In this document: one piece after another, positions 2,666 through 37,304 of the stretch | Position numbering within the stretch: position 1 is the stretch's first letter | Layout: every line of letters starts with the position of its first letter | DNA from: Nitrososphaerota archaeon | GTDB taxonomy: Archaea > Thermoproteota > Nitrososphaeria > Nitrososphaerales > Gagatemarchaeaceae | Assembly (NCBI GenBank): GCA_029785825.1 | Contig: JAFLYY010000001.1 | Coordinates: 1 to 64,000, forward strand | Length of the DNA: 64,000 nucleotides | Direction of reading: 5' to 3' | Program-made: the position numbers and the translations under genes | Notes under the pieces: generated by a model | The model's database searches: none | Told to the model about the DNA's origin: nothing | The model's input: only the letters and a program-made list of their open reading frames with translations

Positions 2666-4735
2666 CTAGGCCCTCCTAGATTTAACGTATTTGAGGTATA
2701 TAACACCCCTGCCCTCTTTGTACGACCAATGAATCTCCATCGCGACCCCTCCAGCTATACCTCTTCCAATTTTCTCCTCTAGCATCGCTAGTCGTTTCTC
2801 GTTCCCGAGTATTGCATTAACATCAGCTTCGCCCCTCGCTAGGCCTTTGTACGACTCCTTCCAGTGTTTGACCATTACAAGGACGGCTTGTTCATCTTTC
2901 TTGCAGATTAGATCGGGACCCTTCCTCTCGGAAATATGTGTCCTGGAGAAGATTGGCTCCCCAACGGGCTCCTTCGATACTATCTCGAACCCAGATTTTC
3001 GGAGCGTAATCTCTGCCACAGACTGCCCTATGTCTCCAATGTGAACCCGCCTCTCGCTTTTGGACGAAGCCATCCGCCAGTATTCCCACGCTGCCGTTTG
3101 ATTACTAGGCGAGAGCTCAATCTTCACCATTCGGGTCGAAAAGTCCAAGGGCTTGGCGATTCTCACGCCAGCTGAATCCATCTCCACCTTGTGAATTTCG
3201 GGGGGCAGGCGTTCGAGCTTACCCTCCGCAGGAACCAGTTTTACATGTGGGAACCGGTCACTTGTGGTCCGTCTGTACTCGAATTTGTATGAGTTTCCCT
3301 CGGCCCTGATTGACTGGACTTGCGAATGATCTCGCAAGCGGAAGTCGAATCCTTCGGAAGACTTGGCGATTTTCACTTGTCCCGCACCTACAAGTTCTCC
3401 GTCCAAGACCGCTTTTCCTTCACGAGTCCTGAGAGCGAAGCTGTCGAACTTCAACTCGCCACGCTCAATTCCTAACGAGAGGCGCCCTTCGGTCTCCACC
3501 AGTCGGGTGTTCTCCAGCCCCATGGGCGGGTTCTTGTTGTACTCTCTCGCGAATGACTGGGGGAGAAGAGACTCAATACTGCTGACTCTTACCTCCTCTC
3601 CAACTTCGACTCCAATGTGGCGCAGGTCTATGTACGTCTTCTGTTGCCTGGGGGTGTGACTGCAGTAAAGGACGTAGTCCGAGGACTCATTCTCTCTCAC
3701 CAGGACGACCGCAAACACGTTTTCTTTCGAGTCTTTGGGGAACTCGGACCCCTGAACGACCAGCATTGGCGACCCCATATGCTCAACAACTTGCCTAATC
3801 GCGGTGGGCTCGAACTCGCGTTCCGCACGAGCTGCCGCACCATCACTTTCACGAGGCGGCCCACGCTCCTGTTGAATCATCGCAAGTTGACTGCCCTCTT
3901 GATTATAGCGCGCCACCCCGTCAGCAGGGTACTGTAGAGGGAGAGATGTGCCTCCTTTGTCCTCGACTACAGTGGTGGCGTTGCCTTTGGAGATTGCACC
4001 GACTTCTCGTTCAGAGTCACCGGGCATGGTTACCTGAATCGCACTCGCAGCAAGCGTCCCTTCCGACTGTAAACGCTGCAAACTTTGATTTTCCCCTTCA
4101 GAAGGACCAGGGCTCCCAACTTCGCTGGGCTTCGTTTGCTCGGTGATTACGAAATGGTCGTCGTTCTTGACGTGCACCTCGACAGCCTTCGGCGCTTCGG
4201 TTTCTCTAGTAATCTCGGTCTTCTCTTCGTCTGGCTTTGCCTGCTCCGTGGGGTTCTCTGTTGCATCTCTGGTACCTGTTATGGTCCCGGCTTCCTTACC
4301 CTCGGTAGTGTCCGACCCAGGTGCTTCTTTGCCGCCCTCCGACGTCGCTTCCTTGTCTGAGCTGTCCGAACCCTTCGATTCCGCTTCCGACCCCTCTTCG
4401 CTCTCGGCCTTCCCCTCAGACCCGGCCTCCATCTCCTCCTTCGGCAGGTTGTACAGCTGGCCCTCGGGGATGTCCTCGCTCAGCCCCTCCGGCCCGTACT
4501 CATCGACGACCTGCCGCCTGAACTCCTCTAGGTCTTCCTCCGTCAGGCGGTCCGCGCCTTCCTTCTCGTCTTCCGGAAGCGGAGCCGCCACCTCCTTCTC
4601 GTCCCCCTCTTTCACCCTCAGGGCCTCGTCCGACTCCCCTGCGCCTTCATCAGCGAGCTCCTTCCTGAACTCCTCGAGATCCCCGTCCCTCGGACCCTTC
4701 TCGTCGTCCTCGGGCCTCTCCGACCCTTCACCCAC
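2666..4735 (-). CDS. Long acidic protein with restriction-endonuclease-like C-terminal domain
   Basis: The protein has 689 residues. Residues 1 to about 220 are highly acidic and low-complexity (Glu, Asp, Ser, Gly). They contain two copies of a DLEEFR motif (near 19 and 68) with matching followers, so the tail carries an internal repeat. The middle (about 300-570) looks like a beta-rich folded domain. The C-terminus has GPDLI (about 606-610) and, 12 residues further, VLVMVKHWKE. This pattern fits a PD-(D/E)xK fold (G-x-D, then E-x-K) of restriction endonuclease-like proteins, but the usual Glu before x-K is replaced by Met, so catalysis is doubtful. It overlaps the ATPase gene upstream by 8 nt and almost touches the small gene downstream. 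Function in DNA binding or processing with the ATPase is inferred. Confidence 0.8.
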   Translation of the reverse strand: MGEGSERPEDDEKGPRDGDLEEFRKELADEGAGESDEALRVKEGDEKEVAAPLPEDEKEGADRLTEEDLEEFRRQVVDEYGPEGLSEDIPEGQLYNLPKEEMEAGSEGKAESEEGSEAESKGSDSSDKEATSEGGKEAPGSDTTEGKEAGTITGTRDATENPTEQAKPDEEKTEITRETEAPKAVEVHVKNDDHFVITEQTKPSEVGSPGPSEGENQSLQRLQSEGTLAASAIQVTMPGDSEREVGAISKGNATTVVEDKGGTSLPLQYPADGVARYNQEGSQLAMIQQERGPPRESDGAAARAEREFEPTAIRQVVEHMGSPMLVVQGSEFPKDSKENVFAVVLVRENESSDYVLYCSHTPRQQKTYIDLRHIGVEVGEEVRVSSIESLLPQSFAREYNKNPPMGLENTRLVETEGRLSLGIERGELKFDSFALRTREGKAVLDGELVGAGQVKIAKSSEGFDFRLRDHSQVQSIRAEGNSYKFEYRRTTSDRFPHVKLVPAEGKLERLPPEIHKVEMDSAGVRIAKPLDFSTRMVKIELSPSNQTAAWEYWRMASSKSERRVHIGDIGQSVAEITLRKSGFEIVSKEPVGEPIFSRTHISERKGPDLICKKDEQAVLVMVKHWKESYKGLARGEADVNAILGNEKRLAMLEEKIGRGIAGGVAMEIHWSYKEGRGVIYLKYVKSRRA

Positions 4736-7433
4736 GGGCTACGGCCTCCAACTCCCTCCTGAACAGCCGCGGGAACTTCGCCCTCCGCTCGGCGTCGAAG
4801 GGGAGGTAGCGGGCCGTGGCCAGGGAAAGCATCTTCGTCGCCGCCTCGACCTGCCCCTCCCTGTCCCGGCTGAACCTGCTCGCGCTCAGCATCAGGAACG
4901 ACCCGAGGAGCTCCCCCTTCCCCGTCCTCGCCCAGATGCGGTACATCTCGAGGAACGGCTTCCTGAACCCCGCCGAGTCCACCAGCTCCCGCATCGCCTC
5001 CTCGGCGCCTCGCTCCCCCTCGCCGGGCGGGTTCCTCAGATAGAACCCGGCCATCCGGGTCCGCACGTCGTCGTCCGAAGCCTCCCTGATCCCCAGCCTG
5101 GCCACGGCGTCGTCCACCTCGACCCTGAAGGGGACCGGATGCCCCTCGACGCTCACCACCGCCTCCCCGGGCATGAGGGCCGTCAGGACCGCCGACTGCT
5201 CTCGCGTCGCGTTCATGGCCCCGGCCATCACCTTCCTGTCGTCGTAGGAGGCCACGCGGTGGACCATCTTGGTCGCGGTGTTCTTTATCGCGTCGGGGAG
5301 TATCTTCGTCGGTATCTGCTCCACCACCGCCAGCCCCTCACCGAAGGCCCTCAGCTCGGCTAACATGTTCCCGAACCGCTCCGCCAGTATCCGCCTGGGG
5401 TCCGTCGACTCGGGGTCTCCCTTCTCGGTAGAAAGCCTCGGCAGGAGCCTGTGGGCCTCCTCCACGAGGGTGAGGTGCTTCAGGTGGCGGGACGGGCCGC
5501 TGGCCTGCACGAACCCGGCCACGTTCATCAGGAGGAGCGAAGCGACGAACGCCTTCTCCTCATCGCTGGCGAGCCCCCAAAGCTCTACCACCGTCGGCCC
5601 GCTCAAAATCTCCCCTAGCGGGGTGGATGCCCGCGCCCCGAAGAGCGGCCCCTTGGTCCCTTCCGTGAGGCTGTGTAGTCTGACGCCGATGGCCGCCTCG
5701 ATGTCCATGGTCACCCTGGGCTCGTACCCAAGCTCCCTCACGACCCTCGCCGCCTGCGCCTTCACGTCCTCCAATGTCACCGGCCGCCCCTCCCTCCCGG
5801 AGGCGAGGTCCCATCCGCACGCGTTGTACGCCGCGGCGAAGACCCGGGGGATGACGTACTGCACGGGAGAGTAGGCGACGAACGACCCGTTCCAGACGGC
5901 CACCAGGTTGTCCAAGTGGGCCTGGGGGCTCACCCCCGGTGGCGGTTCGAAGATGTTCAGCCTGAGGGGGGCGGCGCCCTCGACCCCGGCAGTGAAGACC
6001 CTGAGCCCAGGCACAGCTTCCATGAGGTTCCTGTACTCCGACTTCGCAGGCTCCACAACCAGGAAGGGGACCCGCAGCCTGTCCAGCTGGACCAGGAGGC
6101 CGAGGCACGAAGTGGTCTTGCCGGAGCCAGTCATCCCCGTGACGAAGAGGTGCTTCGCCAGCTGGTCGAGAGGCATCCGCACCGCCTGGCCCGTCTTCCC
6201 GGAGACTGAGACGACCTCGCCGAGGACCACCTCCCCCTGGGTGGCTGCGGGCGCCTGGAACTCGGCCGACGGGGCGACTTTCATCCCCAGGGGGACCTGG
6301 GGGACCCAGAGGTAGGGGGCAGCCTCGGCCGGAGTCATCAGAGCGGAGGGGTGCCAGGTGGACCTGTCGGAGGCTCTCGGGCGCCGGACCCTCAGGCCGT
6401 CGATCTTCCTCTGGCTCGAGAGGGCCCCGGCGAGGACATCGGCAGCGCGGGCGGCGGTGGACGGATCTCCGGCCGAGACCTGGACCGACACCCTGACGGG
6501 TCTCCTCGCCAGCAGGCGCTCCAGACCCCTCACAGAGTCCTCGAGCCTGACTTGGTTCGGATGGTCGACTACAGTGGTGGTCCTGTCGTCGTCGGCCTGC
6601 TGATACCCCGAGCCTTCGGCGAGCTTCCTCTGTCCTCTGGCGGCGAGCCACCTGGAAGCGGGGTTGACCCATCCGGGGGAGAGCCTGATGCTGTAGCTCC
6701 CGTCGAGCCGGTTCTCCACGAAGAACCTGGCGAGGGGACCGAGAGGGTCGGGGGCGAGCGCGGGGATGCCGTCGACCGACACGGAGTAGGCCTCCACTGA
6801 CGCATGGAGCTCAGCGGCTTCGGCCCCGAACTCGGGGAGCTGGGACTTCGCTACCCTCAGCAGATCCGGGAGGCGCACTGCGGCGTCTTTGCCGGTGACA
6901 AGGAAGAGTATTCTGCCCGAGCCTCCGGAGAACTCGAGCCTCATCTCCACCGGGGCGCCTGTCTCGGCCAGGGTCTGGCTGAGGCGCTGGAACCTCAGCA
7001 GGGTCTCCTTCGGGTCGCTCTTCCTGGGGTCGAGATAGCGGAGGGGGACCTTGGTGAGCTCGACGCAGGGAACTGCTCCGGGGCTCTTCGGGCGCGAGGC
7101 GAACAGCTGAGAGGCAGGACCCCCGACCTTCTCGGCGGCGTCTCTGAGGATCCTAGGGAAGGCCCCCAGGGCCAGCAACGCCACCCCCAGCCCTCCGAAT
7201 ACGAGCGGGGAGAATGTGCCCCCCTCGACGACCGCGACCACGGAGAGGACGAGGAAGAAGGCACCCGCGCGGGCCATCCCCCTCGACGGGCCCAGGGCTG
7301 CGGGCCGGCTCTGCCTCTCTGACCACCACTTGTAGAGGAGGACCAGGAGAATCGGGACCCCGACCACCAGAGCCCCAACGTCCAAACACCAGAGGGCGAA
7401 GAGGAGCGCCAGGGCGTTGAGCTTCCACCCCAT
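4728..7433 (-). CDS. Membrane-anchored HerA/VirB4-type (DUF87) DNA-translocating ATPase
   Basis: The protein has 901 residues. Hydrophobic segments at about 4-34 and 54-92 predict an N-terminal membrane anchor. A soluble region (100-400) follows, then the RecA-like motor: Walker A GMTGSGKTT at 433-441, Walker B LTLVEEAH at 654-661, and conserved QIPTKI near 706 and NTATKMVHR near 718. HerA/FtsK/VirB4 family members pump DNA or protein through hexameric rings. Membrane-anchored versions occur in conjugation and in archaeal DNA-import systems such as CedB, while soluble HerA pairs with NurA nuclease or with defence effectors. It is the first gene of a three-gene operon (ATPase, nuclease-like, small protein). 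No NurA or Mre11 is present. The ATG at 7433 has a GGTGG run about 8 nt upstream. A TATA-like TTATAA lies 55 nt upstream. Confidence 0.9.
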   Translation of the reverse strand: MGWKLNALALLFALWCLDVGALVVGVPILLVLLYKWWSERQSRPAALGPSRGMARAGAFFLVLSVVAVVEGGTFSPLVFGGLGVALLALGAFPRILRDAAEKVGGPASQLFASRPKSPGAVPCVELTKVPLRYLDPRKSDPKETLLRFQRLSQTLAETGAPVEMRLEFSGGSGRILFLVTGKDAAVRLPDLLRVAKSQLPEFGAEAAELHASVEAYSVSVDGIPALAPDPLGPLARFFVENRLDGSYSIRLSPGWVNPASRWLAARGQRKLAEGSGYQQADDDRTTTVVDHPNQVRLEDSVRGLERLLARRPVRVSVQVSAGDPSTAARAADVLAGALSSQRKIDGLRVRRPRASDRSTWHPSALMTPAEAAPYLWVPQVPLGMKVAPSAEFQAPAATQGEVVLGEVVSVSGKTGQAVRMPLDQLAKHLFVTGMTGSGKTTSCLGLLVQLDRLRVPFLVVEPAKSEYRNLMEAVPGLRVFTAGVEGAAPLRLNIFEPPPGVSPQAHLDNLVAVWNGSFVAYSPVQYVIPRVFAAAYNACGWDLASGREGRPVTLEDVKAQAARVVRELGYEPRVTMDIEAAIGVRLHSLTEGTKGPLFGARASTPLGEILSGPTVVELWGLASDEEKAFVASLLLMNVAGFVQASGPSRHLKHLTLVEEAHRLLPRLSTEKGDPESTDPRRILAERFGNMLAELRAFGEGLAVVEQIPTKILPDAIKNTATKMVHRVASYDDRKVMAGAMNATREQSAVLTALMPGEAVVSVEGHPVPFRVEVDDAVARLGIREASDDDVRTRMAGFYLRNPPGEGERGAEEAMRELVDSAGFRKPFLEMYRIWARTGKGELLGSFLMLSASRFSRDREGQVEAATKMLSLATARYLPFDAERRAKFPRLFRRELEAVARG

Positions 7434-30399: not shown

Positions 30400-31641
30400 A
30401 TGGCCTGGGAGAAGGAAGGGTACACGACGGTCGAAGATGCACTCCGCAAGGTGAAACGGTGTCTCCGGGCAGAGGTGAAGACAGAGACCGTCGCGACGAA
30501 AGAGTCGTTCGGCAGGATCGCAGCGCGCGATCTCTTCTCTCCCTCTGACATGCCGCCGTTCGACATCTCCCACATGGACGGCTTCGCCGTCATTGCCTCG
30601 GACCTGAAAACGGCGACGAAAACCAGGCCGACGGTCCTGAAGATGGCGGGAGAATCGAAGCTCGGAGCAAAACCGGGGCCGTCAGCAAGGCATCGGCAGG
30701 CCATCCACGTCTTCACCGGAAGTCCCGTTCCCCCAGGGGCTGATGCAGTGATACCTCTTGAGCGGGCGGAGGTGCGGGAGGGCGTGATTTCCGTGGCCTA
30801 CCCCCCAGACCGCGGGAGCTTCGTTTATGCGAAAGGGAACGATCTTCGAAAGGGGGAGAGGGTGGTGAAAAAGGGGCAGACCATCAGGGCCCAGGACGTA
30901 GGCGCCCTCCTGAGTCTCGGTCTGAAGAAGGTGCGCGTGAGGCGGAGGCTCCTGGCTTCGGTGATAGCAACAGGAAGCGAGCTGACAGACGAAGTGGAGC
31001 CGGCACAGGAGAAGGTGGTTAACAGCCACGGCCCGTACTTCCTCTCGCTTTTGCATGCCTTGGGGTGCGTCCCGGTCGACATGGGGGTTGCGAAGGACGA
31101 CCCGGCCGAGATACGGGGCGCACTACGGACGGCATTGGCGAGGTCGGACTTCGTCCTCACTCTGGGTGGAACTTCGGTTGGGCGGGCGGACCTGGTGGGG
31201 GAGGCTGTCAGGTCCCTGGGCCCGGCTGTCTTCGTCCAAGGGATCAAGATGGACAGGGGTAGGGTGGCGGGCATCGCAGTCATCGAGGGGAAGCCTGTCC
31301 TGATGATGCCGGGGCCGATACAGGGGGCAATGAATGCCTTCGTCCTCCTCGGCGCCAGGGTGATCGGTTGGTTGCAGGGGGGCGGAAAGATAGGGGTTGA
31401 AGTGAGCTGTCCTCTGGAAGGCCAATGGGAGGCCAGGAAGAGGTTCTCCCACTTCAGAAAGGTGCTCTACGTCAAGCTCGTCCCTGGGGACCGGACGTCC
31501 GCCCGGCCTCTAGCTGGAGACACCGAGTCAATCAAAGTCCTGTGCGAAGCGGATGGCTACGTGGTAGTGCCAGAGGAAGTCGCCCACCTCGCAGAAGGGA
31601 GCGTCGTCCGGGTCAACCTCTTTCCCGGGTTCTCCTTCTAG
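30400..31641 (+). CDS. moeA: Molybdopterin molybdotransferase MoeA
   Basis: The 413-residue protein has MoeA domains in order: the N-terminal DMPPFDISHMDGFAV (about 49-63), GSPVPPGADAVIPLE (about 109-123), DVGALLSLGLKKVRV, the MogA-like core IATGSELTD with LTLGGTSVGRADLV, and the C-terminal beta barrel. MoeA inserts molybdate into adenylylated molybdopterin. The ATG at 30400 has CTAAAAG about 35 nt upstream. It is convergent with moaE (4-nt overlap). Confidence 0.92.
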   Translation: MAWEKEGYTTVEDALRKVKRCLRAEVKTETVATKESFGRIAARDLFSPSDMPPFDISHMDGFAVIASDLKTATKTRPTVLKMAGESKLGAKPGPSARHRQAIHVFTGSPVPPGADAVIPLERAEVREGVISVAYPPDRGSFVYAKGNDLRKGERVVKKGQTIRAQDVGALLSLGLKKVRVRRRLLASVIATGSELTDEVEPAQEKVVNSHGPYFLSLLHALGCVPVDMGVAKDDPAEIRGALRTALARSDFVLTLGGTSVGRADLVGEAVRSLGPAVFVQGIKMDRGRVAGIAVIEGKPVLMMPGPIQGAMNAFVLLGARVIGWLQGGGKIGVEVSCPLEGQWEARKRFSHFRKVLYVKLVPGDRTSARPLAGDTESIKVLCEADGYVVVPEEVAHLAEGSVVRVNLFPGFSF

Positions 31642-32069
31642 GCCTCGATGGGCTCTCCCTTCGTCCAAGCCTCTCCGCCGCCGGGGAGGCTCTCTCTCTT
31701 CCAGAGGGGAAGAGTCCGCTTTATGGTGTCTATGGCGTACCTGCACGCCTCGAACGCCTCGGCCCTGTGCTCCGAGGCTACAGCCACTGCCACGCTCACC
31801 TCCCCGATGCGGAGCCTGCCATACCTGTGGACCATCACCATCTTCCTGACGGGCCATTTCATCCTCACTTCAGCCTCAATGGCTGACATCTTCTTCTCAG
31901 CCATCCCCCTGTAAACTTGGTACTCCAGCCCTCTGACCGCCTTCCCTTCGTTCCTGTCCCTGACAGTCCCGAGGAAGAGCGCCGTCCCTCCGGCCGAGGG
32001 GTCCCGCACCGCCCGCAGGATCTTCGCGACGTCGATGGGGGCTCTGGTTATCCTGACGGTCGAGGCCAA
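31638..32069 (-). CDS. moaE: Molybdopterin synthase large subunit MoaE
   Basis: The 143-residue protein has the MoaE pattern: ALFLGTVRDRNEGKAVRGLEYQ (about 29-50), VHRYGRLRIGEVSVAVAVAS (about 80-99), a conserved Lys in TIKRTLPLWKRE, and GGEAW. With MoaD it converts precursor Z (cPMP) to molybdopterin. It follows moaD after 1 nt, in an operon moaA-moaD-moaE. Confidence 0.93.
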   Translation of the reverse strand: MASTVRITRAPIDVAKILRAVRDPSAGGTALFLGTVRDRNEGKAVRGLEYQVYRGMAEKKMSAIEAEVRMKWPVRKMVMVHRYGRLRIGEVSVAVAVASEHRAEAFEACRYAIDTIKRTLPLWKRESLPGGGEAWTKGEPIEA

Positions 32070-32070
32070 C

Positions 32071-32310
32071 CTATCCTCCCGCCACCGGAGGGAGCACTCC
32101 GACTTCGTCCCCTTCGTTGAGCGCAGTCCCGAGTTCAGCGACGTCGAAATTGACCGAGAACTTGAGCGACCCTCTCAGAGAGCTCAGGGCAGGGTGCGCC
32201 TCCTCCAGCATCCTGGCCAGGTCTCGCACTGACGACCCGACGGGGACGGTCACGGCCTCGGACTCGGCAGACGCAAGCTCCCTGGCCGAGGCGAAGTACC
32301 GCACTTTCAA
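32071..32310 (-). CDS. moaD: Molybdopterin synthase sulfur carrier subunit MoaD
   Basis: The 79-residue ubiquitin-like protein ends in VLPPVAGG, whose terminal Gly-Gly is adenylylated and thiocarboxylated by MoeB. The N-terminus KVRYFASARELA is typical. It lies 12 nt downstream of moaA and 1 nt upstream of moaE. A second MoaD-like gene is at 35670. Confidence 0.93.
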   Translation of the reverse strand: MKVRYFASARELASAESEAVTVPVGSSVRDLARMLEEAHPALSSLRGSLKFSVNFDVAELGTALNEGDEVGVLPPVAGG

Positions 32311-32322
32311 CCTCGTATGTCG

Positions 32323-33339
32323 TCACCCTCCAATGGCGTTCATGTTCCTGGGCTTGGCCCAGCCGTCGTTTATCCAGGGCATATATCCCACCCCATCCGG
32401 CTTCTTCCAGACCGCGGCCAGAATCTTCTTCGCCAGCTCCTCGTCGCTCGCGCCGTTCCTAACCGCGCCCCTGAGGTCGTGATATTCGGTGTCGAAGAGG
32501 CACGACAGCAGCTTCCCGTCAGCCGTGAGCCTGACCCTGTCGCAGTCGTCGCAGAACGGCTCGCTCATGGGCGTAATCAATCCGAGGCTCCCCTTCCCAT
32601 CCTCGAACTCCCAGAGCGCAGAAGTTTCCGCAGACCCTCGCCCCCGGTGGACCATCGGATACTTGGCCGACACCCTGTCGACTATCTCCTTTCCGCTGAC
32701 CACCCTGTCGTGGCTCCAGATGCCAAGCCCGTCGAGGGGCATGAACTCTATGAACCGTATCGCAATACGCCGCTCGCGGGCATATTCGACCAGCTCAAGC
32801 ATTTCGTCGTCGTTGAAGCCACGTATGGCCACCGAATTGATTTTCACCGGGTTCAGCCCCTCGCCCACGGCCTTGTCGATGCCGCGGAGGACCCTCGGGA
32901 GGGCGTCGATGCCAGATATCTTGGCGAACCTGTCTGCCCTGAGGCTGTGGAGGCTTACTGTGACCCCTCTCAGCCCGGCATCCCGAAGCTGCTTCGCCTT
33001 CTGCTCCAGGTGCCATCCGTTGGTCGTCATGTCCACGCTCCGAATGCCCTGGACTTGCACAAGCGACTTCACCAGGCGCTCTAGGTCCCTTCGAAGGAGA
33101 GGTTCCCCACCGGTGACTCGAATCTTCTCTATCCCGAGCGAGGCCAGTACCCTCGCTATCCTCTCGACCTCCTCGAAGCTCAATATCTCTTCCTGTGGGA
33201 TCCATGACACCTTGTCCTTATCGGGCATGCAGAACAGGCAGGCGAAGTTGCACCGGTCCGTGACTGAAATCCTCAGTTTCTTGGCGACTCTCCCCTTCCT
33301 ATCCAGCAGCTTCCTTCCACCGACTGCGGCCCCTTCCAT
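32323..33339 (-). CDS. moaA: GTP 3',8-cyclase MoaA (radical SAM)
   Basis: The 338-residue protein has the radical SAM motif CNFACLFC, the GGEPLLR motif, and a second cluster site near the C-terminus (FCDDCDRVRLTADGKLLSC). It ends with Gly-Gly (MNAIGG), needed for maturation of cPMP synthesis. It makes 3',8-cyclo-GTP with MoaC completing cPMP. The ATG at 33339 is chosen over GTG 33354 because GTTTTTACGG (33363-33372) lies about 28 nt upstream. It is first in the moaADE operon, divergent from moaCB. Confidence 0.93.
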   Translation of the reverse strand: MEGAAVGGRKLLDRKGRVAKKLRISVTDRCNFACLFCMPDKDKVSWIPQEEILSFEEVERIARVLASLGIEKIRVTGGEPLLRRDLERLVKSLVQVQGIRSVDMTTNGWHLEQKAKQLRDAGLRGVTVSLHSLRADRFAKISGIDALPRVLRGIDKAVGEGLNPVKINSVAIRGFNDDEMLELVEYARERRIAIRFIEFMPLDGLGIWSHDRVVSGKEIVDRVSAKYPMVHRGRGSAETSALWEFEDGKGSLGLITPMSEPFCDDCDRVRLTADGKLLSCLFDTEYHDLRGAVRNGASDEELAKKILAAVWKKPDGVGYMPWINDGWAKPRNMNAIGG

Positions 33340-33362
33340 CTGAGGCCGAACCACACCGTCTC

Positions 33363-33397
33363 CGTAAAAACGTTCCCGGCGAGGGAACGGCTATAAC
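33363..33397. promoter_or_regulatory. Divergent promoters of moaADE and moaCB
   Basis: The minus-strand TATA-like element is at 33363-33372 (for moaA) and the plus-strand GCTATAAC at 33390-33397 (for moaC, 24-31 nt before its GTG). The tight spacing suggests coordinated transcription of cPMP genes. Confidence 0.5.
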
Positions 33398-33420
33398 GGG
33401 CGGAGTGGAACTGACGGGAC

Positions 33421-33864
33421 GTGCCATACCGTCAGGCCGACGTCTCGGAGAAGCCGGTGATCTACCGGGAGGCTACCGCGACCGGGAGGATTCGGCTGAA
33501 GAAAAGGACCATCAGTCTCATCAGGAAGGGAGAATTGGCGAAGGGGGACCCTGTCTCCCTTGCGGCGATGACCGCCATAACCGCGGCCAAAAAGACACCC
33601 GAAATCGTCGCCCTCTGTCACCCCCTCAGAATCGAAATGATCGAGCCGAAGGTGAAGGTCGGGGACGGGTGGGTAGAAGTGACCGTCAGGGTCGCAGCCC
33701 ACGAGAAGACCGGAGTCGAAATGGAGGCGCTGACCGCGGTCTCAGTCGCGCTGCTCAACATATGGGATGTGACCAAGGCTTACGAGAAGGACTCCAGCGG
33801 CCAGTACCCAAGTACGCTCATCGAGTCCATCAAGGTCATCAGCAAAGTGAAGGGCGGAAAGTGA
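33421..33864 (+). CDS. moaC: Cyclic pyranopterin monophosphate synthase MoaC
   Basis: The 147-residue protein fits MoaC: AATGRIRL-type start (REATATGRIRLKK), GDPVSLAAMTAITAAKKTPEI (about 44-64), LCHPLRIEMIE, and EKTGVEMEALTAVSVALLNIWD (about 98-119) with the active-site Lys and Asp segment. It turns 3',8-cyclo-GTP into cPMP. The GTG start at 33421 is leaderless by TATA spacing. Its stop overlaps the start of the moaB-like gene (GTGA). Confidence 0.93.
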   Translation: MPYRQADVSEKPVIYREATATGRIRLKKRTISLIRKGELAKGDPVSLAAMTAITAAKKTPEIVALCHPLRIEMIEPKVKVGDGWVEVTVRVAAHEKTGVEMEALTAVSVALLNIWDVTKAYEKDSSGQYPSTLIESIKVISKVKGGK

Positions 33865-34382
33865 ACCCCCCCGAGGAGCATAGGAAGGCCGGGGCGAGGA
33901 GGCTGAGGGCGAGGGTGTTCACGGTGAGCACGAGCAGGTACACGGCGATGAAGGAAGGGGGGAAGTTCACCGACGAATCGGGAGACGTCGCCGAGGAAGA
34001 ACTGAAGGAAGCCGGACACGACATCGCATCACGCAGACTCATCTCTGACGACGCCAAGATGCTCCGGGGGGCGGTGAGTGAGTTCCTTTCTAGCAAAGAC
34101 GACGTGCTCCTGTTCACCGGTGGGACCGGCGTTTCGAGCCGCGACATAACGATAGAGACGGTAAGGCCATTCTTCGAGAAGGAGCTTGATGGCTTCGGAG
34201 AGCAGTTCAGACGGGTCAGCTTCGACGAGGTGGGAGCCGCGGCTATGATGACCAGAGCTACCCTGGGGGTGGCGAAGGGGAAGCTCATCCTCTGCCTGCC
34301 AGGGTCGCCCAGCGCAGTAAGGACAGCTCTGAGGGAGGTCGCAGGGGAGCTGCCCCACGCCGTGCACATAGCCCGCAGTTAG
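33861..34382 (+). CDS. moaB: MoaB/MogA-family molybdopterin adenylyltransferase
   Basis: The 173-residue protein has the MoCF_biosynth fold: RRLISDDAKMLRGAVSEFL, DVLLFTGGTGVSSRDITIETVRP (about 82-104), and CLPGSPSAVRTAL near 154. It activates molybdopterin with AMP before metal insertion by MoeA. The GTG at 33861 overlaps moaC by 4 nt, and the first 15 residues (Lys/Arg-rich) are longer than usual, so an internal GTG may be the start. Confidence 0.9.
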   Translation: MNPPEEHRKAGARRLRARVFTVSTSRYTAMKEGGKFTDESGDVAEEELKEAGHDIASRRLISDDAKMLRGAVSEFLSSKDDVLLFTGGTGVSSRDITIETVRPFFEKELDGFGEQFRRVSFDEVGAAAMMTRATLGVAKGKLILCLPGSPSAVRTALREVAGELPHAVHIARS

Positions 34383-34436
34383 TGTCCGGCGGTACTCGGG
34401 CACGGCAGAAGAGCGTCCGGACCCGTAAATCCGTCC

Positions 34437-35582
34437 CTAGAAGACGGGGAAGTCAGGGTCCACGGTGTCTGCCCAGGCCCGGACCCCTCCACGAAGGTTC
34501 CTGGCCGTGTACCCCTTCGACGCGAGGAAGTCGACGGCGACGGCGCTCCGGGTCCCCACCAGACAGTATGCTATGATGGGGTCGTTGACATTCAGCTCTC
34601 CGAGCCTCTTCTCGAGCTCTCCTAGAGGGATGTGCTTCGACCCCTCGAGCTCACCGAAGCTGTTTTCGAACGGCTCCCTGACGTCGAGGAGCTGGATCTT
34701 CTTTCCTTCATCCAGCATGCGCTTGAGCTCCACGGGCGTGATCTCGCTGGGCGATGGCTCCCTCCTGAGGCCGCAGAACGCATCATAGTCGACCAGGGCT
34801 CTTATCGAAGGCTCTGGCCCGCACACAGGACACGCTTTGTTCTTCTTGAAGCGAAGCTCGTTGAATGTCATCCCTGCGGCGTCGAAGAGGACAAGCCTCC
34901 CCACCAGAGGATTGCCCCTCCCCAGCAGGAGGTTGGTCGCCTGCGCCGCCTGGATGCTCCCCATTATTCCGGGGAGGACCCCGAGTACCCCTGCCACCGA
35001 GCAGTCCTGGACCGTCTCGGGAGGAGGGGGTTCTGGGAACAGGCACCTGTAGCATGGGCCCTTCGACGCGTAGAACACCGAGGCTTGACCGTCGAACCTG
35101 AACACACTGGCATAGACGTCCGGCTTGCCTGACAGGACGCACGCGTCATTGATCAGGTAGCGGGCCGGGAAGTTATCGGTGCAGTCCAAGATGACGTCGT
35201 AGGCCGAGACCATCTCGAGGGCGTTCCCCGAGTCGAGCCTCACCCTGTGCGGCACAGGGTTCACATGCGGGTTGACTTCACGGAGCCTCTGGGCCGCGAC
35301 GTCGGCCTTGCTTCGTCCGACGTCTGCTTCTGTGTAGATGACCTGTCTATGGAGGTTGCTCTTGGCTATGATGTCGTCGTCGACGATTCCCACCTTCCCT
35401 ACGCCAGCTGCCGCGAGATAGACTGACGCCGGGACCCCCAGGCCTCCAGCTCCGACCACCAGGACGCTGGATCTTTTGAGCTTCCTCTGCCCCTCAGGGC
35501 CTATCTCAGGCATGGCCAGTTGCCTGCTGTATCTCTCTATCTCGTCTCTGGAAAGTTCGGCCGCGTCGGCCTGTCCGGGCAT
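34437..35582 (-). CDS. moeB: MoeB/ThiF-type adenylyltransferase fused to a rhodanese domain
   Basis: The 381-residue protein has an N-terminal E1-like domain with VVGAGGLGVPASVYLAAAGVG, DDDIIAKSNLHRQVIY and DCTDNFPARYLIND. It keeps CxxC zinc pairs (one is CPVCG) and the catalytic-cysteine region DCSVAGVLGVLPG. The C-terminal 100 residues form a rhodanese domain with active-site loop AYCLVGTRSA. This MOCS3-like fusion adenylylates MoaD and donates sulfur. The ATG at 35582 has TTTTAAC about 30 nt upstream. Confidence 0.92.
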   Translation of the reverse strand: MPGQADAAELSRDEIERYSRQLAMPEIGPEGQRKLKRSSVLVVGAGGLGVPASVYLAAAGVGKVGIVDDDIIAKSNLHRQVIYTEADVGRSKADVAAQRLREVNPHVNPVPHRVRLDSGNALEMVSAYDVILDCTDNFPARYLINDACVLSGKPDVYASVFRFDGQASVFYASKGPCYRCLFPEPPPPETVQDCSVAGVLGVLPGIMGSIQAAQATNLLLGRGNPLVGRLVLFDAAGMTFNELRFKKNKACPVCGPEPSIRALVDYDAFCGLRREPSPSEITPVELKRMLDEGKKIQLLDVREPFENSFGELEGSKHIPLGELEKRLGELNVNDPIIAYCLVGTRSAVAVDFLASKGYTARNLRGGVRAWADTVDPDFPVF

Positions 35583-35669
35583 GGTCGTGGAAGGAACGCC
35601 CTCGGCGCGTTAAAAGATTTGGAGCGCTTCACGCTCCCCATAAATAGCCAGGGGTGCTCCTGACCTCGC

Positions 35670-35945
35670 TTGATCCACGTCAAGCTGACGGCACAGTTGA
35701 GGGACTGGACCAACGGAGTCTCCAGCCTGGAGATGGACAAGGTCCCGGACCTCCAGTCGATGGTGAGGAGCCTGGACGCCAGATTTCCGGGCCTCGGGCA
35801 GAGAATCGTCGACGATCAGGAGAAAATCAGGATCCACGTGAACATATTCGTGAACTCAGAAAACTCGAAGGACCTGCAGAGGGAGAAGACGAAACTTCGC
35901 GACGGGGACACGGTGCATATTTTACCATCTGTAGCGGGAGGATAG
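35670..35945 (+). CDS. Second MoaD/ThiS-family sulfur carrier-like protein
   Basis: The 91-residue ubiquitin-like protein ends LPSVAGG, so the C-terminal Gly-Gly needed for thiocarboxylation is present. It has a longer middle than MoaD (RIHVNIFVNSENSKDLQ), resembling the archaeal MoaD/SAMP-type subfamily. The TTG at 35670 has CCATAAATAG about 28 nt upstream. It is divergent from moeB and 11 nt upstream of a BNR-repeat gene, a conserved-looking pair rather than a normal molybdopterin synthase set. It may thiolate something other than molybdopterin. Confidence 0.88.
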   Translation: MIHVKLTAQLRDWTNGVSSLEMDKVPDLQSMVRSLDARFPGLGQRIVDDQEKIRIHVNIFVNSENSKDLQREKTKLRDGDTVHILPSVAGG

Positions 35946-35956
35946 GGGGGAGATAG

Positions 35957-37045
35957 ATGGCAAAGGACGACGGAAAACAGATCTTGATGGTAGGGACCCG
36001 CAAGGGCGCATTCGTCTTCACATCTGATGGCGGGCGGAGAAGCTGGAAGTTGTCAGGCCCCGAACTGAAGGGGAACGAGACCTACCACATGGCCTACGAC
36101 AGGCGCAGTAAGACCATGCTTGCGTCCGTCAGCAGCAGCCACTGGGGTCCCACCGTCGCAAAGAGCAAAGACCTGGGCAAGTCCTGGAAGGTCTCCAGGA
36201 CGCCGCCGAAGTTTCCGAAGGGCTCGGGCCTGTCCGTCGCGAGGATCTGGCAGATCAAGCCAGGGATAGATGACGACGAAGGAGTGGTCTACGCAGGGGT
36301 GGAGCCTGCATGCCTTTTCAGGTCGGACGACGGCGGGGAGAAGTGGACGGTCAACGAAGCCATGCTGAACCACAAGACCAGGAAGAAGTGGGAGCCAGGA
36401 GGGGGAGGGCTCTGCCTCCACACCGTGGTCCTGAGCGAGCGGCGCCCGAAGAGAATCCTGACCGCGATTTCCGCCGTAGGCGTCATGCGGTCGGACGACA
36501 GTGGAGAGACGTGGAGTTTCAAAAACAAGCACCTGCTGGCAGACTTTCAGCCGGAGAAGTACCCCGAGTTCGGCACGTGCGTACACAAGCTGGCCATCAA
36601 CCAGTCCAAGCCTGACACGATTTTCCAGCAGAATCACACCGGGGTCTACAGGAGCGACGACGCAGGAGATGATTGGAAAGACGTCAGGAGCAACCTTCCG
36701 TCCCGCTTCGGGTTTCCTGCCGCCGTGGATGCGAACGAGCCGGAACGGTTCTACCTCGCGCCGCTCGAAGGCGATTTCTCCAGGATACCTCTGGGGGGCC
36801 ACTTCGCGGTGTGGGCGACGGACAACGGAGGGAAGGAGTGGAGCAAGCTGGACTCGGGCATCCCCAAAATGTCATACTTCACCGTGCTGAGGGACGCGAT
36901 GGTGACAGACCAGGGAGAACCCTGCGGCCTCTATTTCGGCTCCACGACGGGCCAGCTGTTCGCCAGCAGGGACCAGGGTAACAAGTGGGAGAGGATTGCG
37001 GACGGTCTCCCCCCAATACTGTCGGTTTCAATATCTCCCACATGA
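35957..37045 (+). CDS. BNR/Asp-box repeat beta-propeller protein (sialidase/VPS10-like fold)
   Basis: The 362-residue protein has several Asp-box repeats, S-x-D-x-G-x-x-W type: SDGGRRSW, SKDLGKSW, SDDGGEKW, SDDSGETW, SDDAGDDW, TDNGGKEW and SRDQGNKW. They are spaced roughly 50 residues apart, forming a six- or seven-bladed propeller. There is no signal peptide, so it appears cytoplasmic. Catalytic sialidase residues are not evident. Its tight linkage to a MoaD-like gene (11 nt) recalls bacterial pairs of MoaD-like and BNR proteins. The function is unknown. Confidence 0.85.
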   Translation: MAKDDGKQILMVGTRKGAFVFTSDGGRRSWKLSGPELKGNETYHMAYDRRSKTMLASVSSSHWGPTVAKSKDLGKSWKVSRTPPKFPKGSGLSVARIWQIKPGIDDDEGVVYAGVEPACLFRSDDGGEKWTVNEAMLNHKTRKKWEPGGGGLCLHTVVLSERRPKRILTAISAVGVMRSDDSGETWSFKNKHLLADFQPEKYPEFGTCVHKLAINQSKPDTIFQQNHTGVYRSDDAGDDWKDVRSNLPSRFGFPAAVDANEPERFYLAPLEGDFSRIPLGGHFAVWATDNGGKEWSKLDSGIPKMSYFTVLRDAMVTDQGEPCGLYFGSTTGQLFASRDQGNKWERIADGLPPILSVSISPT

Positions 37046-37076: not shown

Positions 37077-37304
37077 ATGAACGGGCGCAAGGTCTGCCTT
37101 TCGATGTTAGGGATAATGGCCCTGCTCGTGGGGGCAGTCTTCTCCCTACAGGGAGCGGGTACATCCCAGGGAGCTACACGTCCGGAGACCCTACTTACAT
37201 CTATGTGGGATGCGGTAATCGCGGCGATAGGATTGCTGATCATCCTCGGCGGCAACTGGCCCAAGGCAGGACGACAAGTTTCCGCACCAGCGCCGCCTCG
37301 ATAG
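37077..37304 (+). CDS. Small two-helix membrane protein
   Basis: The 75-residue protein has a hydrophobic segment at about 7-25 (LSMLGIMALLVGAVFSL) and another near 48-60 (AVIAAIGLLIILGG), followed by a basic, Pro/Ala-rich end. It may be a membrane protein or a secreted peptide with a C-terminal anchor. The ATG at 37077 is 31 nt after the BNR gene, perhaps the same transcript. It has no recognised family. Confidence 0.5.
   Translation: MNGRKVCLSMLGIMALLVGAVFSLQGAGTSQGATRPETLLTSMWDAVIAAIGLLIILGGNWPKAGRQVSAPAPPR

Follow-up and report, generated by a model that had tools for sequence, protein, structure and literature searches.

A MoaD-like sulfur carrier gene linked to an Asp-box beta-propeller gene in archaea and bacteria: a candidate two-gene carrier–partner module

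In a 64,000-nucleotide stretch of DNA from a Nitrososphaerota archaeon (hereafter, the window), the gene for a small MoaD-like protein, MoaD2, is located immediately upstream of the gene for an Asp-box beta-propeller. The earlier note, made from the sequence, had drawn attention to this arrangement and had suggested that a thiocarboxylated form of the carrier could have the propeller as its target or acceptor. Both open reading frames, the C-terminal Gly-Gly of the carrier and the spacing of 11 nt between the genes were verified. The neighbourhood conservation that had been proposed as a check was found in most loci: the carrier and propeller genes are adjacent in 20 of 21 readable archaeal loci and in 12 of 16 bacterial loci. 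Unlinked genes, which had been named beforehand as refuting the idea, are a minority only (1/21 and 4/16, respectively). Thus, the part of the claim that concerns a functional pairing is strongly supported by linkage and co-occurrence in archaea, in beta- and gamma-proteobacteria and, with the gene order reversed, in two actinobacteria, while the chemistry of the pair is something that we infer. From these data we consider the chances about even that the two genes constitute a dedicated carrier–partner module, in which the propeller would be the acceptor, or a thiocarboxylate-using partner, of MoaD2.

Structure of the locus

The positions of the relevant genes are listed in Table 1.

Table 1 Genes in and around the carrier–propeller pair (positions in the window)
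Feature	Position	Strand	Remarks
MoaD2, CysO/SAMP1-like beta-grasp sulfur carrier, 91 aa	35670..35945	+	TTG start; C-terminal SVAGG; ORF, profile and PDB matches
Asp-box beta-propeller, class-1 family, 362 aa	35957..37045	+	ATG start; full-length homologue of PDB 3b7f
MoeB-rhodanese, E1-like adenylyltransferase with C-terminal rhodanese domain (ThiF-rhodanese)	34437..35582	-	Profile matches
Short gap shared by the divergent moeB and MoaD2 genes	35583..35669		ORF coordinates
Genuine moaD, adjoining moaE; with MoaD2, one of two ThiS-family genes in the genome	32071..32310	-	Profile matches
moaE	31638..32069	-	Profile matches
moaA	32323..33354	-	Profile matches
moaC	33421..33864	+	Profile matches

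The genes moaE, moaD, moaA and moaC and the MoeB-type ThiF-rhodanese gene span positions 31638–35582 according to profile matches, and moaB was named by eye only. A separate moaA/D/E set is therefore present in the window, as the earlier note had stated. The whole genome contains two ThiS-family genes, moaD and MoaD2, and one class-1-type propeller gene. When compared with two close relatives, the propeller and MoaD2 gave dN/dS values (NG86) of 0.07–0.09 and 0.12–0.13, respectively, and these low values indicate that both are real genes. The description of the propeller as cytoplasmic comes solely from a reading by eye, in which no obvious signal sequence was seen.

A small ORF for a predicted membrane protein follows the propeller gene (37077–37304). 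It is common to G416 and G412, and G410 and G418 have similar ones; over one stretch, the copy in the window deviates in the manner of two frameshifts that compensate each other. Since this ORF occurs in some relatives only, it was left out as a member of the module.

Sequence characteristics of the carrier

MoaD2 scored above the cut-offs of Pfam ThiS (46.4 bits; cut-off 22.5) and of the archaeal MoaD subfamily TIGR01687 (moaD_arch; 50.2 vs 49.5). It scored below the cut-offs of the SAMP1 model NF041918 (53.1 vs 60) and of the MoaD equivalog TIGR01682 (23.4 vs 66.15); the genuine moaD is also below the latter (60.3). Among solved structures, the best matches were mycobacterial CysO (3dwg, E 4.4e-9) and the ThiS/MoaD protein 4n6e (E 5.9e-9). 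The TTG start lies at the same place in all seven of the nearest relatives read.

In a tree of 92 columns, the carriers of the pairs are split from genuine moaD by a branch with 100/100 support. The archaeal pair carriers form two supported groups of 4 and 13 rows, with G447 apart, and this grouping agrees with the propeller tree for the genomes present in both trees. The two actinobacterial carriers were placed apart in this short tree, and a single origin of all pairs is therefore not claimed. The assignment of MoaD2 as a MoaD equivalog was rejected on the basis of the TIGR01682 score, the position outside moaD in the tree and the fact that the neighbour of moaE is the other gene.

A Gly-Gly occurs at the same place in all 20 archaeal carriers: it is terminal in 12, and it is followed by 1 to about 14 residues in the other eight (G441, G435, G454, G458, G457, G461, G455 and G447; loci L039, L040, L077, L088, L089, L090, L091 and L093). 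The retention of an internal Gly-Gly points to probable trimming before use, as in ubiquitin precursors. The motif is also kept in the Arthrobacter carrier and in every proteobacterial carrier read. The Nonomuraea carrier (L008, 5069–5383) ends in LPALA without a Gly-Gly before the stop codon, and the neighbouring propeller keeps the conserved residues. This last case would fit an explanation in which the propeller has MoaD2 as a non-covalent subunit or as a regulator and the chemistry of the tail is inessential to the pairing, since a carrier without Gly-Gly still adjoins an intact propeller there. However, the presence of Gly-Gly in all of the other carriers mentioned, even in those with residues after it, makes this explanation distinctly unlikely.

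Linkage in archaea

The archaeal genomes comprised a draw over the phylum (398 genomes), 61 relatives and the family f1 (46 genomes). The propeller is patchily distributed among them: it was found in one phylum genome (that of the window itself), in 17 relatives and in 23 members of f1. Eighteen of these 23 carry a class-1 propeller, and five (G409, G430, G431, G434 and G462) carry subfamily 2 only. MoaD2 lies directly upstream of the class-1 propeller in all 18 readable loci of f1 (17 genomes, G456 being represented twice) and in G441 and G447 outside the family; the single exception is G448, in which a truncated propeller stands alone. G418 does not belong to the readable loci, because its contig begins inside the propeller gene.

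Co-occurrence was examined in the 46 genomes of f1. The class-1 propeller is present in 18 and MoaD2 in 17, and the 17 are all genomes with both (Fisher p 1e-11, uncorrected for relatedness). Among the f1 carrier matches at E 1e-10 or better, no lone MoaD2 without a propeller was found. The remaining f1 carrier matches (G430, G434, G455 C45, G456 C65 and G459) sit in long reading frames. Two of the five frames were read and are carrier–ThiF fusions, and the other three are presumably the same, as judged from the frame length and the neighbouring JAB gene. In relatives (L078, L079, L083 and L085), a ThiF or ThiF-rhodanese protein begins with an in-frame fused MoaD-type domain that retains Gly-Gly. 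The fusion genes of G430 and G434 adjoin a JAB gene.

The gap between the carrier and propeller genes was measured in 16 archaeal relatives, and in 14 of them it is about −8 to +14 nt, with overlaps of −4 included. The outliers are G441, with a larger gap, and G455, without a start codon near the carrier. These tight gaps and overlaps suggest that the translation of the two genes is coupled. The next neighbour of the pair is moeB in the window and in G416, G412, G410, G426 and G403, while neither moeB nor moa genes lie beside the pair in G408, G421, G435 and G441. Accordingly, it is the pair itself, and not the moa setting, that is conserved.

Linkage in bacteria

The bacterial evidence came from a plasmid collection, in which 19 records matched, 16 of them being class-1-like by length and identity; the loci of 18 records were fetched. 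The records are few and not independent, and only three are actinobacterial. Among the 12 loci with adjacent genes, the carrier lies upstream in ten, all from beta- or gamma-proteobacteria (Burkholderia, 4; Cupriavidus, 2; Paraburkholderia, 2; Mitsuaria and Pseudomonas), and downstream in two, from the actinobacteria Nonomuraea and Arthrobacter. The four loci without a carrier beside the propeller, where the locus only was read, belong to three Rhodobacterales and one Streptomyces. Wherever annotation exists, the bacterial pairs lie outside moa operons. In the public record of Paraburkholderia phymatum, both the carrier and the propeller are interrupted (L017, 3530–5121). A general contig scan with a single propeller protein as the query yielded three matches, two of them in near relatives and one, which was weak, in Bacteroidales, and viral contigs scanned with the propeller alignment A1 gave no match. 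The pair may correspond to PA1355/PA1356 in P. aeruginosa; one paper that mentions PA1356 comments on colonisation and biofilm in the manner of an annotation, with no function test, and was therefore not used.

The propellers of actinobacteria and proteobacteria form sister groups in the propeller tree (91/88), and their gene orders are opposite. This indicates that the order changed while the adjacency persisted or was regained. If the linkage were incidental, that is, if two unrelated genes merely travelled together, the patchiness of the pair, with the propeller in 1 of 398 phylum genomes, would be understandable. Nevertheless, such a coincidence is extremely unlikely, given the adjacency kept between sister groups of reversed order, the co-presence in 17 of 17 genomes in the family and the absence there of a lone MoaD2-type carrier.

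Characteristics of the propeller

The propeller matches Sortilin-Vps10/BNR models. It is a full-length homologue of 3b7f, with E values of 9e-67 for the single protein and 2e-111 for the profile, the latter covering positions 4–354 of 357. In the part of PMC2716378 used here, 3b7f is described as a seven-blade Asp-box propeller with the function listed as 'Not known'. Seven residues (H155, S172, H210, Q225, H227, R276 and R312) are invariant in the alignment of the 27 carrier-linked propellers, and K16 is found in 26 of them. Most of these polar residues would be situated on the face that surrounds the central channel, as estimated from their positions relative to the Asp-boxes. An AlphaFold2 prediction of the propeller, based on three near-identical sequences, had a mean pLDDT of 31 and was not used.

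Two sets of propellers without a linked carrier were compared with the above. The four class-1 propellers keep all eight residues. Subfamily-2 propellers (36–44% identity; L044–L051, L094 and L096) belong to the same archaeal family, and a carrier was never seen adjacent to them; in six such proteins, K16 and R276 are replaced in all, and H155, S172, H210, Q225, H227 and R312 are invariant. The latter six residues are therefore not specific to the pairing.

The catalytic triad of sialidases consists of Asp, Tyr/Glu and Arg. Outside the Asp-boxes, no Asp or Glu is invariant in the 27 linked propellers (D48 and D318 are found in 25), while R276 and R312 are present in all 27. None of the curated sialidase models gave a match over its own cut-off among the proteins of the window. 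GH33 propellers are six-bladed according to a table of PMC2716378, and the homology to the seven-bladed 3b7f led us to reject the GH33 exo-sialidase candidate. The public name exo-alpha-sialidase thus appears to be poorly founded for these propellers.

E1-like enzyme, JAB peptidase and molybdenum cofactor genes

The MoeB-rhodanese of the window is the only full ThiF-family protein in the genome, a second match being sub-threshold, and both CXXC motifs are read in its sequence. In the part of PMC3227635 used here, the mycobacterial rhodanese-bearing E1 MoeZR charges both MoaD and CysO, while MoeBR, which is of the both-CXXC type, does not charge CysO. As the only full E1-like enzyme, MoeB-rhodanese probably charges both the moaD product and MoaD2. 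Among 13 genomes that were scanned for ThiF and carry the pair or a class-1 propeller, three (G418, G428 and G435; 85–90% complete) gave no match, nor did G448, which has the truncated propeller.

One Prok-JAB gene exists in the genome, away from the pair (L106, G000 C1:364500-370000, at 2585–2977), and its neighbours there, as judged by eye, resemble genes for the alpha subunit of the proteasome and for an SBDS-like protein. Prok-JAB is present in 41 of the 46 members of f1. These data bear on a ubiquitin-like modification, in which, in the manner of archaeal SAMPs, MoaD2 would be joined by its C-terminus to a propeller lysine, or would have targets presented to it by the propeller, and the JAB peptidase would reverse the reaction. 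Such a system is compatible with the wide occurrence of JAB, with the SAMP1 match at 53 bits, with the 8 of 20 archaeal carriers that run past Gly-Gly like ubiquitin precursors and with K16, which is found in 26/27 linked and 4/4 unlinked class-1 propellers and in 0/6 of subfamily 2. However, the SAMP1 score is under the curated cut-off, the four class-1 propellers that lack a linked carrier conserve K16 just as well, and a gene partner as a fixed target is unlike the known use of SAMPs. We therefore regard this modification as unlikely.

MoaE was found in 14 of the 18 genomes of f1 with a class-1 propeller and in 10 of the other 28 (p 0.007); at a completeness of at least 85%, the association was not clear, the corresponding values being 9/12 and 5/13 (p 0.11). 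There was no MoaE match in the pair-bearing genomes G421, G456 and G458 (76–90% complete), and in G421 (88% complete) both the pair and an E1 are present. The genome of the window has a second moaA–moaE locus (L105, G000 C1:1370500-1377500, at 3275–4818), in which moaD is a remnant in the gap 3655–3805, still reading VIPPVAGG just before the stop codon. In the relative G399, the apparent second moaE is closely preceded by a ThiS-family gene that is intact.

These features may be taken to mean that molybdopterin synthesis uses MoaD2 as a second MoaD and that the propeller aids the maturation of a molybdoenzyme: MoaD2 adjoins moaA, moaC, moaD, moaE and moeB in the window, the second locus has a moaD remnant only, and the class-1 propeller is positively associated with MoaE over the 46 genomes. 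Against this, the equivalog score is low (23 vs 66), moaD is separate in the tree, pairs lie away from moa genes both in the four archaeal genomes noted above and in the annotated bacteria, and MoaE has no match in three pair-bearing genomes, although these are only 76–90% complete. This role for MoaD2 is very unlikely on balance.

Proposed mechanism

A gene neighbour of a carrier usually encodes the protein that uses this carrier. By analogy with MoaD–MoaE and CysO–CysM, the propeller may therefore be the dedicated partner of MoaD2. In the first step, MoeB-rhodanese would adenylate MoaD2 at the C-terminal glycine and, by means of the rhodanese domain, convert this end to the thiocarboxylate; carriers with residues past Gly-Gly would be trimmed beforehand, most likely by a JAB/JAMM peptidase. 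In the second step, MoaD2 would dock on the propeller, and its charged tail would reach a putative polar pocket made of K16, H155, S172, H210, Q225, H227, R276 and R312, where the sulfur would be used on a small substrate or a bound cofactor. Several observations weigh against the module, namely, the loss of Gly-Gly in Nonomuraea, the class-1 loci without a carrier, the conservation of six of the polar residues in subfamily 2, the association of the class-1 propeller with MoaE, the genomes without ThiF and, mildly, the both-CXXC type of the E1. As a more specific and rather doubtful possibility, the propeller may represent a new class of thiocarboxylate-using protein, in which H155, H210 and H227 hold a metal or cofactor and sulfide from the carrier is incorporated into a propeller-bound centre or passed on to a substrate bound there.

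Comparison with known systems

An understanding of the well-characterised thiocarboxylate carriers came by way of the enzymes with which they are partnered (MoaE, ThiG and CysM). A conserved carrier–propeller unit, shared by a soil-type archaeon with unrelated bacteria, some of them from genera that are widely studied, suggests a step of sulfur transfer or modification that has yet to be described. A catalogue of prokaryotic ubiquitin-like gene neighbourhoods published in 2006 (PMC1779556, in the part used here) covers numerous carriers of the ThiS/MoaD type, together with their E1, JAB and sulfur-metabolism partners, and its main text does not contain the words propeller, sialidase, neuraminidase, BNR or glycosyl hydrolase. 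In the titles, abstracts and listings of the open-licence PubMed Central literature, we found no account of the carrier–propeller pair and no beta-propeller partner of a MoaD/ThiS-type carrier; one paper on food fermentation contains both MoaD and exo-alpha-sialidase as terms. Within this literature, a carrier with a dedicated partner is known, and the propeller as the type of partner is new.

Among the known systems, the mycobacterial CysO–CysM–Mec+ system with MoeZR resembles the present one in the CysO-like carrier (3dwg being the best match), a rhodanese E1 able to serve more than one carrier and the JAB in the genome. It differs in that the partner is the PLP cysteine synthase CysM and not a propeller; in the window, moreover, JAB is not adjacent, and the E1 has both CXXC motifs. 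The molybdopterin synthase MoaD–MoaE likewise has a small Gly-Gly carrier encoded beside its partner and the same type of E1, whereas MoaD2 is not a MoaD equivalog, its partner is not MoaE, and moaD and moaE exist separately in the window. The archaeal carriers running past Gly-Gly, which imply trimming, recall the Caldiarchaeum ubiquitin precursor, processed by an Rpn11-type JAMM enzyme (PMC6043591, in the part used here); no E2 or RING gene was noticed beside the pair. Finally, the Cupriavidus (Ralstonia eutropha) BNR-repeat protein 3b7f is similar to the propeller over the full length and has the same conserved His, Gln and Arg residues in the alignment, and the pairing with a sulfur carrier provides a functional hypothesis for this structure.
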